From a virus: DNA of 30,053 bases. The DNA lies in the IMG/VR virus record IMGVR_UViG_3300025636_000020, positions 1 to 30,053 of that record. One strand, 5' to 3'. Position 1 is the stretch's first letter, and every line of letters begins with the position of its first letter. Positions 1,969-8,462 of the stretch are shown here, piece after piece. Position numbers and translations under genes: made by a program. Below the pieces are notes generated by a model. It was not told the DNA's origin and did no database searches. It was given only the letters and a program-made list of their open reading frames with translations.

Positions 1969-3177
1969 CTAAAATAGTGCCGAAGCGTAAATTAAGTTTG
2001 TATCTAATGTTTGTAATCCACAAGCAACAAGTACTCTATTAAGAGGGTCAATCATTGCTTTTTCAAATTGTGTATCATAGTCGACCGGTGGTGCAAATTC
2101 ATAAGGGTGATCTCCAGGCATATAAGCGTAAACTTCACTAATTGGACTTTTACAGTTATAGATCTTAAGCTTCTCTCCGTTACCAATTACTTTATACTTG
2201 GTCTTATACTTTGAATTGGTATTTAATAAGTAGTTGTAGTAACCAGCAGCCTTTACGTTTGCTGGACATTTAAGACCAACTTGTAATTCAATCTGGTCAT
2301 CAACAATATACTTTTCAATATTATTAGTTCTACGATTAAAACTAATGTCATCAATGTTTGCCATTTGAAACTCTTTCTTAGTCTCTTTCATGAAAGTTAC
2401 TAGAGTTTGTAGATCTTCTGCAGTTGGACTACTTCCACGTTGAAAGATAATCTTTAGTGCTTCAGTAAGCTTAGTACGTACAAATGCTGGAGTTGAAGAT
2501 TGGATTGTATCGAAACCAATAGTCTTAACCTTCTTAAGAGGTTTATGTCTATCAGTTACTTCTAACTTATCATCCCATGCAATATTTTGAATATACTTTT
2601 TCTTTGCCAACCAAATACCATTATAGGCTAGTGATTCTAATTCAAATACCAAGAAGTTCTCAGAGTTTCTAGCGTCTGCATACTTCTCCATACATTTTCT
2701 AATGTATTCTTTAAGTCTAAATGCATACAACTCTAATATAAAGACATCAATTGCAATCTTATCCTCTTCGTTTGGCCATACAATAGACTCATATAGATCC
2801 TGGAATTGAATATAACAAGAATCCGTATCAATATAAATTACTGCTGGTTTTTCAATCTTACCTTTGGCTTTAATACCGAAATGTTCATGGACTGCTTTAT
2901 CTTTATGCCAAAATTCTTGCACGTATTTGTTAAGAATAGATTCTGAATAAAGAATTGCATTCTTACTCTGTTTAGTAATTGATTCTGCAATATTAATGTC
3001 AAAAAAGTGGAACCATTTATTACCAAAGGCACCATAGATAGAGTTAAGAGTTAACTTAACAGCTTGCTCATAAGCTGTATATTTAGCAGAAAGCTGCTCA
3101 TAATGATTTATGAGCAGCTTTGCCTCTTCTTGTGAAAGTTGATCTGTTGGTTTATTTTCTAACTCTTGGATATCCAT
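1969..3177 (-). CDS. 43B: DNA polymerase family B, C-terminal half (gp43 part B)
   Basis: C-terminal part of a T4-like replicative polymerase: second fingers helix, palm and thumb. Motif B is at residues 41-53 (KLTLNSIYGAFGN, compare KxxxNSLYG). Motif C is at 112-121 (AVIYIDTDSC), with the metal-binding DTDS aspartates at 117 and 119. There is no exonuclease domain and no motif A; both are in the gene at 7059-8462. The first 35 residues are a charged helix with no counterpart I know. It begins 3 nt after the gp45 stop, so clamp and polymerase half are coupled. 402 aa plus the 467-aa part A is close to the 898 aa of T4 gp43. The protein ends LIYASALF, compatible with a C-terminal clamp-binding tail. 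It should be active only as a heterodimer with part A. Confidence 0.92.
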   Translation of the reverse strand: MDIQELENKPTDQLSQEEAKLLINHYEQLSAKYTAYEQAVKLTLNSIYGAFGNKWFHFFDINIAESITKQSKNAILYSESILNKYVQEFWHKDKAVHEHFGIKAKGKIEKPAVIYIDTDSCYIQFQDLYESIVWPNEEDKIAIDVFILELYAFRLKEYIRKCMEKYADARNSENFLVFELESLAYNGIWLAKKKYIQNIAWDDKLEVTDRHKPLKKVKTIGFDTIQSSTPAFVRTKLTEALKIIFQRGSSPTAEDLQTLVTFMKETKKEFQMANIDDISFNRRTNNIEKYIVDDQIELQVGLKCPANVKAAGYYNYLLNTNSKYKTKYKVIGNGEKLKIYNCKSPISEVYAYMPGDHPYEFAPPVDYDTQFEKAMIDPLNRVLVACGLQTLDTNLIYASALF

Positions 3178-3979: not shown

Positions 3980-3993
3980 TAAAATTAGTGCAT

Positions 3994-4031
3994 AAAAAAG
4001 GGCAGAGATAGTAGCGAACTTTTCTCTGCCC
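3994..4031 (-). terminator. Rho-independent terminator after nrdA
   Basis: Read on the minus strand: a perfect 9-bp stem GGGCAGAGA / TCTCTGCCC with a 14-nt loop, followed by six T residues. It ends the 43A-nrdB-nrdA direction of transcription ahead of gp45. The loop contains TTCGCTAC, the complement of the conserved 23S rRNA word GTAGCGAA. Confidence 0.85.
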
Positions 4032-4035
4032 AACC

Positions 4036-4056
4036 CGTTAACTATAACGGTCCTAA
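4036..4056. other. 18-nt match to 23S rRNA helix 69-71 / I-CeuI half-site
   Basis: The plus strand reads TAACTATAACGGTCCTAA at 4039-4056, identical to the first 18 bases of the 27-bp I-CeuI site, itself a universally conserved piece of bacterial 23S rRNA around helix 69-71. The identity stops where I-CeuI cuts the top strand, as I remember that site. With one extra T the match extends to CCG on the left, keeping a CCGTTA/TAACGG hairpin like helix 69. It lies in the 3' untranslated region of nrdA, antisense to rRNA in the nrdA message. Confidence 0.7.
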
Positions 4057-4087
4057 AATGTGGTCCTATTTCATACCACCGGATATC

Positions 4088-5908
4088 TTACCCATCACAG
4101 CTTAAGCAATCTGGATCCATTGCTGAAGCAGCAATATCACCTCTTAACACTGATTCTGTTCTCATATAATAGAGTGTTTTAACTCCTTGCTTATAGGCTT
4201 CCAAGTGAACTTGGTTAATAAATTTAGGCTCTGCTTCTTTTGGGAATGCTAAGTTTAAACTTACTGCCTGGTCAACATATTGTTGTCTAACACCTGCTTG
4301 TTTTACAAGCTCTAATTGATTTACCTCTTTAAATGTTTTAAATATATTTTTTAATGAGGTATAGTTATCTTGTTCTAGTGCTGGTAACTTTTCAAAGTCT
4401 TTATTTTTAATCGGTGGATTCTCTTTTGAGATAGGCTCCCCAATCTTAATTTTATAATCATCAATAAACCCAAGACCTAAAACACTTCCACCGTCTGATA
4501 AGATTTGATCCCAAACTCCTTTAGTATTTTTACTAATAAGTTCAAGTGCTCTCTCAAGTGTTGGATTCTTACGAATAAAAGTACCCTTTGCAGTTTGTTC
4601 TGTAAAGACGTTAGCAGCCCATGGCTCAATACCAGCAGATACATTACCACTTAATTTTGAGTTAGATACAGTTGGTGCTATGGCTCTCAGGTGAGTGTTT
4701 CTCATTCCAGTTCCAACACACCATAGAGGTTCTCCATATTCTAGTGCCATATCTCTAGATGCTCTTTCAGACTCAATCTTAATTTGAGAGAAGATCTTTC
4801 TAGTTTCAAATTGTGCAGTTAAGCCTTCAAATGGAATGTTATTATCTTGTAAATATGTATGCCATCCAAGAACTCCTAATCCAAGTGCTCTTCCCTTTTC
4901 TGCAGAACGAATTGAGTTTTCAAAGCCTCTCATAAATTTAGCCTTCTGGATAAATTCTTCCATAACTCCATCTAGGAACCAAGTAGCAGTATAGACTAAA
5001 TCAGTATCTTTCCATTCTTTATATTTAGCAAGGTTCACTGAAGATAGACAACAAACAAAAGAGTGTGACTCATCGGTATGCAGTGCAATCTCTGAACAGA
5101 TATTAGTCATATAGACTTTAAGTCCATTATTCTTATATGCATCTGGGTTTGCTCTATTAACATTTCCCTTAAACATTATATAAGGCTCTCCAGTAGATCT
5201 ACGTTTTCTAAGAACTGCAGCCCATCTTTTACGTGCTTCTTTGTCTCCAGCTTCTACTTTTTGCATAAATCCATCAGAGACAATAACACATTGGTGCATA
5301 TTAAGAGATTGTCTATTAACATCTCCTTTAGGCTCTCTAATCTCTAGCCATTCCCAGAAATCTGCATGTTCAATATCAATATTAACAGATGCTGCTCCTC
5401 TTCTTACACTTCCCTGATTGGTTGCTAAGATTGTAGAATCATAGATCTTACAGAAAGGTACAACACCATCACTGGTTCCATTACCTTTAATTGTAGATCC
5501 TGCTGGGCGGATTTGATTAATACCAATTCCAACGCCACCTCCATGTTTTGCAAGTAGCATCATCTCTAAATTCTTTGCACCAATATCGTGGATTGAATCT
5601 GCAACATCGATACCAAAACAAGAGATTGGAAGTCCTCTTTCTGTTCCAGTATTTGAAAGTACAGGGGACGCTAGATTTAACCAGCCTTTCCAGATATAGT
5701 CAAAGAACTTGCTTGCCATTTCTGGTTTACTAAGTCTTTTTGCTACAGTTGTTGCAACTCTCCAATAAGCATCCTTTGGAGTCTCATTCTCTATAAGGTA
5801 GCCATTGCTAATGGTCTTTACATAAATTTCAGTATTGGCCCATGTTGGAAAATCAACACCCAGCTCCCAACCAAGTGCTTCTCCATAATTAATTGTATCG
5901 TTTTTCAT
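4088..5908 (-). CDS. nrdA: Ribonucleotide reductase class I, large subunit NrdA
   Basis: Reduces ribonucleoside diphosphates to dNDPs for phage DNA synthesis, with NrdB supplying the radical. Visible motifs: ISCFG with redox Cys97; a loop-like region KGNGTSDG (141-148); NMHQC (203-207); the active-site word TNICSEIAL (268-276) giving Asn269, Cys271 and Glu273; a VCCLSSVNL stretch with the partner cysteine (286 or 287); and a C-terminal CLSC pair (Cys601, Cys604) that would accept electrons from thioredoxin or glutaredoxin. At 606 aa it is shorter than E. coli NrdA (761), and the N-terminus enters the catalytic part directly, so no ATP-cone allosteric domain is present. It starts 12 nt after nrdB. 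Confidence 0.95.
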   Translation of the reverse strand: MKNDTINYGEALGWELGVDFPTWANTEIYVKTISNGYLIENETPKDAYWRVATTVAKRLSKPEMASKFFDYIWKGWLNLASPVLSNTGTERGLPISCFGIDVADSIHDIGAKNLEMMLLAKHGGGVGIGINQIRPAGSTIKGNGTSDGVVPFCKIYDSTILATNQGSVRRGAASVNIDIEHADFWEWLEIREPKGDVNRQSLNMHQCVIVSDGFMQKVEAGDKEARKRWAAVLRKRRSTGEPYIMFKGNVNRANPDAYKNNGLKVYMTNICSEIALHTDESHSFVCCLSSVNLAKYKEWKDTDLVYTATWFLDGVMEEFIQKAKFMRGFENSIRSAEKGRALGLGVLGWHTYLQDNNIPFEGLTAQFETRKIFSQIKIESERASRDMALEYGEPLWCVGTGMRNTHLRAIAPTVSNSKLSGNVSAGIEPWAANVFTEQTAKGTFIRKNPTLERALELISKNTKGVWDQILSDGGSVLGLGFIDDYKIKIGEPISKENPPIKNKDFEKLPALEQDNYTSLKNIFKTFKEVNQLELVKQAGVRQQYVDQAVSLNLAFPKEAEPKFINQVHLEAYKQGVKTLYYMRTESVLRGDIAASAMDPDCLSCDG

Positions 5909-7058: not shown

Positions 7059-8462
7059 TTATGCGTTAAATATTTTTTTTAATTCGTGTGCTTTTTCATA
7101 ATACTCATAAGATGTCTTTTTATAATCTTTTCGTTGACCATACAGATCACTTAGGATTAACTTTAACATAGAATCTTCTTTCTTATAAACTGCACCATTT
7201 TCACAAACAATAACATTCTTATCAGCTCTTCTATTAGGTACTTCCATCTCTGGTACCATTTCAATAAATGAGTCTGGTGAGATATTAAACTGTCTCATGA
7301 TTGATGGATAAAGAGAGGCAAAGTCAAATGCACTTACTCCACTATAATAACCAACAATTGGTTGCTTTACAAATGCACCTTCATACTTAGTATCTTTTTT
7401 AGGTCCATCTTTATTCCACTCTACTGCAATCTTTTTATTCTCACCTGCTAGCTTTCTAGCAATAAGAGATTCAGTAACTGCCACTGGAGAGGCTGCTTTA
7501 TAGAGCGGCATTCTTGTAATAGTAGCCAGTGTTAATAGTACTTCCATTGACCTTAGTTTCCGATCTATATAATAAACTAGACAAGAATCGACTACGTTGT
7601 AGTAAATATATTTTTGGAAGTCTCTTTCATAGAGTTCTTGTAATCCACCAGTATATTTAATCTTTGCAACATCTAATACAGCGCCAGATACAAAGTCTAA
7701 TGAGTTAGATTCTTTAACTGCAACAGATCTATCATATTTATCATATAATTGCATGTAGTCAAGAATACCCATGTGCATTGGTCTCTGGTCAGTCTTATCT
7801 AGAGTTCCAGTAATTGCAACTTCGGTTAAATCAATCTGAAGTCTTTTACAACGGTTTACGATATATTGCCAGTCATAGTTAATAAAGTTCCACCCAGTCA
7901 TCATTGGAAACTTAGGTAAGAATTTATGCAAGAATGTATACAACATATTGTACTCATCTTTAAACTTGTAGTAAGAGAATTCCCAATCTTGGTCATAATC
8001 TTTAAAGTGAGCATTTGTATCGTCTTCGATCTTTTTAATCTGAGCAGCACTAAGATCTTCTAATCCAAGTACAATAGCTTTACGCTCTGGTGTGATAATT
8101 GAGAATGAAAGTATTCTTGATTTAGCCTCTTCTGGCTTTGGAAAACCATCAATAATTTCAGTCTCAATATCCACAAAATAAGTACGTGGCATATTAAACT
8201 CGTAAATCTCTTCTTTGTCTTTCTCTGGAAGACTGTCCATGAAATAGAGTAGAGAGAACTTGTTAAATGATTTAGAAATACCTCGTTTGATTGGGCGACC
8301 ATCCCAGTTCTTAAACGTTTGGTCAGCATATCGGTCATCTTCTTTTGCAATAGTCCAGTTTTGAAACGTATCTACTGGGTATCTTTTAAATGAGACCTTG
8401 CCCTCTTTGTCGTAATAAGAAACGATTAGTTCGCGGTCGGTTTGTTCAATATCTAATAGCAT
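7059..8462 (-). CDS. 43A: DNA polymerase family B, N-terminal half (gp43 part A)
   Basis: N-terminal, 3'-5' exonuclease, first palm segment and first fingers helix of a T4-like polymerase. Exo I is YFVDIETEI (Asp98, Glu100), Exo II TGWNFINYDW (Asp197), Exo III YNVVDSC (Asp292). Motif A is DFASLYPSI (380-388), followed by the fingers sequence GQRKDYKK (442-449). The protein stops soon after, at ELKKIFNA (467), exactly where T4 gp43 would cross the tip of the fingers. Motifs B and C are encoded separately at 1969-3177. No intein-like sequence is seen at the break. Its ATG overlaps the dUTPase stop (TAATG), so it is coupled to the nucleotide-metabolism genes upstream. Confidence 0.93.
   Translation of the reverse strand: MLLDIEQTDRELIVSYYDKEGKVSFKRYPVDTFQNWTIAKEDDRYADQTFKNWDGRPIKRGISKSFNKFSLLYFMDSLPEKDKEEIYEFNMPRTYFVDIETEIIDGFPKPEEAKSRILSFSIITPERKAIVLGLEDLSAAQIKKIEDDTNAHFKDYDQDWEFSYYKFKDEYNMLYTFLHKFLPKFPMMTGWNFINYDWQYIVNRCKRLQIDLTEVAITGTLDKTDQRPMHMGILDYMQLYDKYDRSVAVKESNSLDFVSGAVLDVAKIKYTGGLQELYERDFQKYIYYNVVDSCLVYYIDRKLRSMEVLLTLATITRMPLYKAASPVAVTESLIARKLAGENKKIAVEWNKDGPKKDTKYEGAFVKQPIVGYYSGVSAFDFASLYPSIMRQFNISPDSFIEMVPEMEVPNRRADKNVIVCENGAVYKKEDSMLKLILSDLYGQRKDYKKTSYEYYEKAHELKKIFNA

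Follow-up and report, generated by a model that had tools for sequence, protein, structure and literature searches.

A folded phage RNA element at the 3' end of nrdA with conserved complementarity to 23S rRNA helices 69-71

In the window, the 30,053-nucleotide stretch of viral DNA analyzed here at its full length, a segment identical to part of bacterial 23S rRNA had been noticed behind the phage gene nrdA, raising the question of whether it is an accident of sequence, the remnant of a mobile element, or part of an RNA directed at the ribosome. As claimed in the initial annotation, TAACTATAACGGTCCTAA was found as an exact match at 4039-4056 on the plus strand (0 expected in shuffles of the window), GTAGCGAA was located at 4011-4018 in the apical loop of a hairpin on the minus strand, GGGCAGAGA...TCTCTGCCC, with a U-tract behind it, and the two pieces stand in swapped order relative to 23S rRNA. 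In E. coli numbering, we take helix 69 (H69) to be 1906-1924, the 18-mer 1911-1928, and GTAGCGAA 1930-1937. The observation was correct, yet larger than reported, as the segment is part of a widespread conserved RNA element.

The RNA element at the 3' end of nrdA

The element occupies about 3994-4087 on the minus strand and consists of the 3' UTR and terminator of nrdA, the gene for the class I ribonucleotide reductase large subunit (4088-5908, minus strand; Pfam PF02867/PF00317), whose ORF ends at 4088. All 20 scanned window proteins are encoded on the minus strand, with nrdB and nrdA ending directly ahead of the element. Read along the minus strand, it opens with a hairpin GUGGU-augaaauagg-ACCAC (4060-4079), the sequence of which differs among relatives, followed by the invariant core 1, UUAGGACCG (4048-4056), antisense to 23S 1920-1928. 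Core 1 overlaps the hairpin P2, CCGUUA-UAGU-UAACGG (4035-4050), whose stem covaries and whose loop UAGU is in register with the H69 loop; the 18-nt stretch at 4039-4056 is perfectly antisense to 23S 1911-1928. The terminator hairpin GGGCAGAGA...UCUCUGCCC (4000-4031) has stems that vary in relatives and a conserved loop GUUCGCUAC that includes the nearly invariant core 2, UUCGCUAC (4011-4018), antisense to 23S 1930-1937; the U-tract at 3994-3999 would form the 3' end of the RNA. The element occurs once in this 30-kb viral contig, and the region 3985-4090 gave a fold z of -3.0. The hairpin with its U-tract, the fold and the relatives of the same architecture (class A, below) agree on an intrinsic-terminator 3' end, which was absent from the output of a simple terminator scan because its loop exceeds the 3-8 nt limit of that scan.

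In the surrounding locus, a family-B DNA polymerase is split in two minus-strand ORFs (window positions 1969-3177 and 7059-8462), between which nrdB, nrdA, the RNA element and a 247-aa ORF are located; the extra sequence is too short for a split intein. The closest nrdA of a named phage was that of Flavobacterium phage immuto (60% identity), which suggests a host among the Bacteroidota for the window phage.

A search for the segment in related phage genomes, as had been recommended, was carried out with 80 relatives taken by nrdA protein similarity without use of the motif, and the 260 nt after nrdA were inspected. The element was present there in 56 of the 80. After removal of duplicates, core 1 was conserved in 33/33 distinct protein-anchored relatives, as UUAGGACCG in 32 and as UUAGGGCCG in one, a 34th string being excluded as a mis-hit of the loose pattern; the A>G change in UUAGGGCCG retains a G-U pair to U1923. 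Core 2 read UUCGCUAC in 32/34 and AUCGCUAC in 2/34, and the stems flanking the cores differed between relatives. For two of the phages lacking it after nrdA (L108 and L109), the model located the element elsewhere in the genome with intact cores (E about 1e-8). The 18-nt identity is a perfect match in the window; in relatives only TTAGGACCG (minus strand, 4048-4056) was strictly conserved. The other nine bases belong to the covarying hairpin at 4035-4050, of which they make up the loop and one arm, and their match to 23S is full in the window and partial elsewhere.

Distribution and architectures

Well over 100 contigs of uncultivated phages carried the element. The pattern TTAGGACCG-N12-42-TTCGCTAC matched at least 119 viral stretches, and nearly all of the matches that were read were structured; apart from the nrdA-anchored set, counts by architecture rest on such core-requiring pattern searches. 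The 18-mer had exact matches in 54 viral stretches, one of them (L041) true 23S rRNA and the other 53 outside rRNA, most of these adjoining a terminator oriented in the antisense direction. Exactly one copy was held by 23 of 25 large records (77-353 kb), where once per genome means once per record, IMG/VR contigs often being fragments; L010 and L011 carry variant forms. In L010, TTAGGACCGTTATAGTTA (1883-1900) lies inside a phage tRNA array with an adjoining HNH-like gene and has no obvious terminator.

The genes directly upstream fell into about 54 clusters, and in most loci the element is located no more than about 45 nt behind a stop codon. Carriers include a phage with a contractile tail sheath (L019), one with a portal protein of another family (L377) and one with an unrelated terminase (L025), and therefore do not belong to one lineage. 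The uncultured 642-kb phage LR756502 carries the element as well. It was found in none of the named phages T4, immuto, phi14:2 (the latter two the nearest named nrdA relatives), HTVC008M, S-TIM5, Lak-C1 and MaF61, and is therefore not universal; BLAST of element representatives against named phages returned nothing usable. The weak model matches to T4 and others (E 0.1-0.3) were taken as chance, with the exception of that to L011 (E 0.15), which the 18-mer scan had already revealed as a divergent carrier.

Several architectures were distinguished. In class A, the type of the window, core 1 is followed by P2 and then by the terminator with core 2 as its apical loop. P2 reads CCGnnn-UAGU-nnnCGG in the nrdA group; 96.8% of its cells were paired, and its covariation was 0.390 against 0.105 in shuffles, with 0/500 reaching the observed value. 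In class B, core 1 lies within a loop closed by a variable stem, the loop of a second hairpin pairs with the 3' tail in a pseudoknot, where 6 sequences exchange C-G for G-C, and a third hairpin presents core 2 as its loop AUUCGCUAC. Covariation in this class was 0.647 versus 0.206 in shuffles (0/500), slid versions scoring at most 0.16, and some of its loops stretch core 1 to a 14-nt complementarity (CUACCUUAGGACCG). The G-U pairs in both classes suit the transcript strand; together with the terminator, this speaks for the nrdA-transcript (minus) strand and led us to reject a mimic of H69 on the plus strand, which the initial annotation had offered as one option. Another class B loop, CGGCUGCUG (e.g., L153:2566-2659), is antisense to the 16S 530-loop sequence; as part of it covaries with its pseudoknot partner, this match was set aside, and the likeness is probably a structural coincidence.

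Class C comprises collinear antisense segments, 19-31 nt long, which occur in at least four groups (L008/L009 and relatives; L366/L379/L380; L371; L376/L377), most of them followed by a terminator-like hairpin, and in several loci these elements lie hundreds of bases past the preceding gene. A class C promoter was not confirmed by a simple scan, though a TGATATAAT-like box is visible by eye. Class D is limited to 20 nt antisense to H69 plus its 3' side, found behind a virion structural gene in L004/L015 and elsewhere in L025. L415 has a permuted order, with core 2 in a hairpin loop preceding core 1 and then the terminator. Among ten carriers of unusual forms, nine had exactly one CTTAGGACCG, and the tenth, L019, had TTTAGGACCG. 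Classes A to D and L415 have nothing in common beyond the apparent rRNA target. A neighbor gene of about 30% identity is found at loci of both class B (L149, L203) and class C (L366, L379, L380, L045), a hint of replacement at a similar locus.

Complementarity to a single 23S rRNA site

The segments CUUAGGACCG and UUCGCUAC are antisense to 23S 1920-1929 and 1930-1937, respectively, which are exactly contiguous, so that the joint span of 1920-1937 runs from the 3' strand of H69 to H71. The best hybrid window on the 23S piece overlapped 1911-1937 for 25 of 27 nrdA-anchored elements, compared with 2/108 dinucleotide shuffles. The eight positions that follow, UUAUAGUU, still matched the antisense in 36-69% of the class A sequences outside the nrdA group; complementarity thus extends to the H69 loop more weakly and in part for structural reasons.

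Control searches gave a different picture. An equally long conserved 23S word from elsewhere was found only in the contaminated L041, with no isolated viral match compared with 53 for H69-71, and the same core pattern in 257 Gb of prokaryote genomes gave 96 matches without structure, some of them true 23S. Reversing the core order yielded 15 viral matches, of which 14 were unstructured and one was a real variant, and the search for an archaeal-type antisense returned one unstructured match and no counterpart. The conserved complementarity to one 23S site exceeds chance and these controls, and chance identity was ruled out by conservation and controls together. Assembly artefact or rRNA contamination was likewise rejected for the element; true 23S was confined to L041 and the L369 fragment among the viral matches. 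What these data show is a folded RNA element that is conserved, specific to phages and present as a single copy, and whose complementarity to one 23S site is conserved as well.

Proposed pairing with the ribosome and its alternatives

From the complementarity, its recurrence and the controls, 23S rRNA is likely the target. We infer that transcription yields the element as drawn and that it pairs with 23S, and the RNA probably binds the ribosome during infection. The earlier suggestion that the terminated 3' UTR pairs with the ribosome gains backing from the conservation, the recurrence in unrelated architectures and the controls, and an nrdA 3' UTR RNA aimed at the ribosome is the best explanation overall, one that we regard as reasonably probable. 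We lean, if only slightly, toward the broader reading that a widespread phage RNA family, in several independent architectures, controls the host ribosome by pairing with 23S H69-H71.

In the mechanism that we envisage, the RNA would be freed at the terminator or trimmed out of the mRNA, and its two unpaired invariant segments would pair with the contiguous 23S 1920-1937, the pairing extending to 1911 in the H69 loop in the window phage and some others. Given the swapped order in classes A and B, a linker of P2 plus one terminator strand would have to span the distance between the two duplexes. The RNA would bind free or immature 50S subunits and cover the inter-subunit bridge region H69-H71, so that 30S joining would be blocked or delayed and host translation lowered or redirected; this consequence is put forward only tentatively. 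Several points count against this explanation: the segments are swapped in classes A and B and therefore form no single simple continuous duplex; part of core 1 (CCG) is paired intramolecularly; H69-H71 is itself folded in the mature 50S subunit; and the element is absent from several named phages and has no archaeal-type counterpart in the search described above. Published work lends support: anti-H69 PNA is reported to inhibit E. coli growth (PMC7038079), MazF-mt6 cuts helix/loop 70 in free 50S, not in 70S, and a single mutation in the region abolishes subunit association (PMC5408214).

Among the alternatives, the one that survives best is a structured RNA (an aptamer, riboswitch-like or protein-binding RNA) whose invariant loops are its own binding site and whose 23S match is coincidental. 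The complex class B fold with its pseudoknot, the invariant loops, which are typical for aptamers, and the swapped segment order in classes A and B would all suit such an RNA. It is nevertheless unlikely, considering that the chance of exact contiguity on 23S is about 1e-6 (our estimate from word lengths) and that the collinear, H69-only and permuted versions retain the rRNA complementarity alone. A protective or anti-defense RNA, in which H69-H71 pairing shields 23S from MazF-like toxins or keeps ribosomes usable for the phage, would fit helix/loop 70 as a known target of MazF-mt3/mt6 (PMC5408214) and the class C pairing, which would extend into the MazF cut site. Classes A, B and D, however, end before the UUCCU site, and we consider this role improbable. 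An equally small probability is given to a cis-acting 3' UTR device, in which rRNA pairing would tether or recycle ribosomes on the mRNA or stabilize it. The short distance to the stop codon in most loci would agree with such a device, and 18S-complementary 3' elements exist in some plant viruses; it is opposed by the occurrence of just one copy in each record, after about 54 unrelated kinds of genes, and by the remote position of class C in several loci. That an rDNA homing intron or endonuclease left a scar here or has its target here, an idea prompted by the overlap with the I-CeuI site region, conflicts with the conservation of the element as a folded RNA and is hardly tenable, given the RNA covariation, the single copies at many loci, the swapped order and the lack of any homing endonuclease among the 20 window proteins by Pfam and a simple LAGLIDADG motif check.

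The proposed ribosome-pairing RNA was also compared with known systems. Against Rfam 15, the window gave no match at gathering score, the class A, C and D loci none at E<0.5, and the class B loci none at E<3. Like bacterial trans-acting sRNAs derived from 3' UTRs, the element lies at an mRNA 3' end and has an intrinsic terminator and short seed-like unpaired segments; it differs in its apparent target, rRNA rather than mRNA, in its conservation across very diverse phages and in its complex fold. With the box C/D and H/ACA guide RNAs of archaea and eukaryotes it has in common that they are structured small RNAs with short rRNA-antisense segments, whereas it occurs in phages of bacteria without a known guide enzyme, and no box C/D or H/ACA elements were seen by eye in the class A and B alignments. 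By analogy, its action may resemble that of base-pairing sRNAs or guide RNAs, and we place it in neither class. Synthetic anti-H69 PNA oligomers, antisense to the same 23S helix, have been reported to inhibit the growth of E. coli (PMC7038079); they are synthetic, whereas the phage RNA is encoded.

The literature searched, which included few of the subscription journals and preprints, contained no report of a 23S-directed phage RNA, and we propose a 23S-targeting antisense RNA as a new kind of phage RNA. If the pairing is real, phages would regulate the ribosome by RNA and not solely by proteins or tRNAs, through a site nearly identical in all bacteria; the element would then be nature's equivalent of the antibacterial oligomers against H69, would give uncultivated phages a means of takeover that does not depend on the host, and would constitute a new RNA family that Rfam lacks.

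With respect to the I-CeuI site and 23S introns, the element shares 26/27 bases in two pieces and differs in its swapped order, antisense strand, folded RNA and lack of a detected endonuclease; the contiguous 27-bp site had no match in the window with up to 3 mismatches allowed. Two other viral records carry 23S-related sequence. At L369:14420-14438, true 23S stops at about 1920 and continues into non-rRNA DNA, a junction that may be either an insertion in rDNA or a chimeric contig, and at L370:3439-3457 an 8.4-kb viral contig matches antisense 23S over about 41 nt, with a single mismatch.
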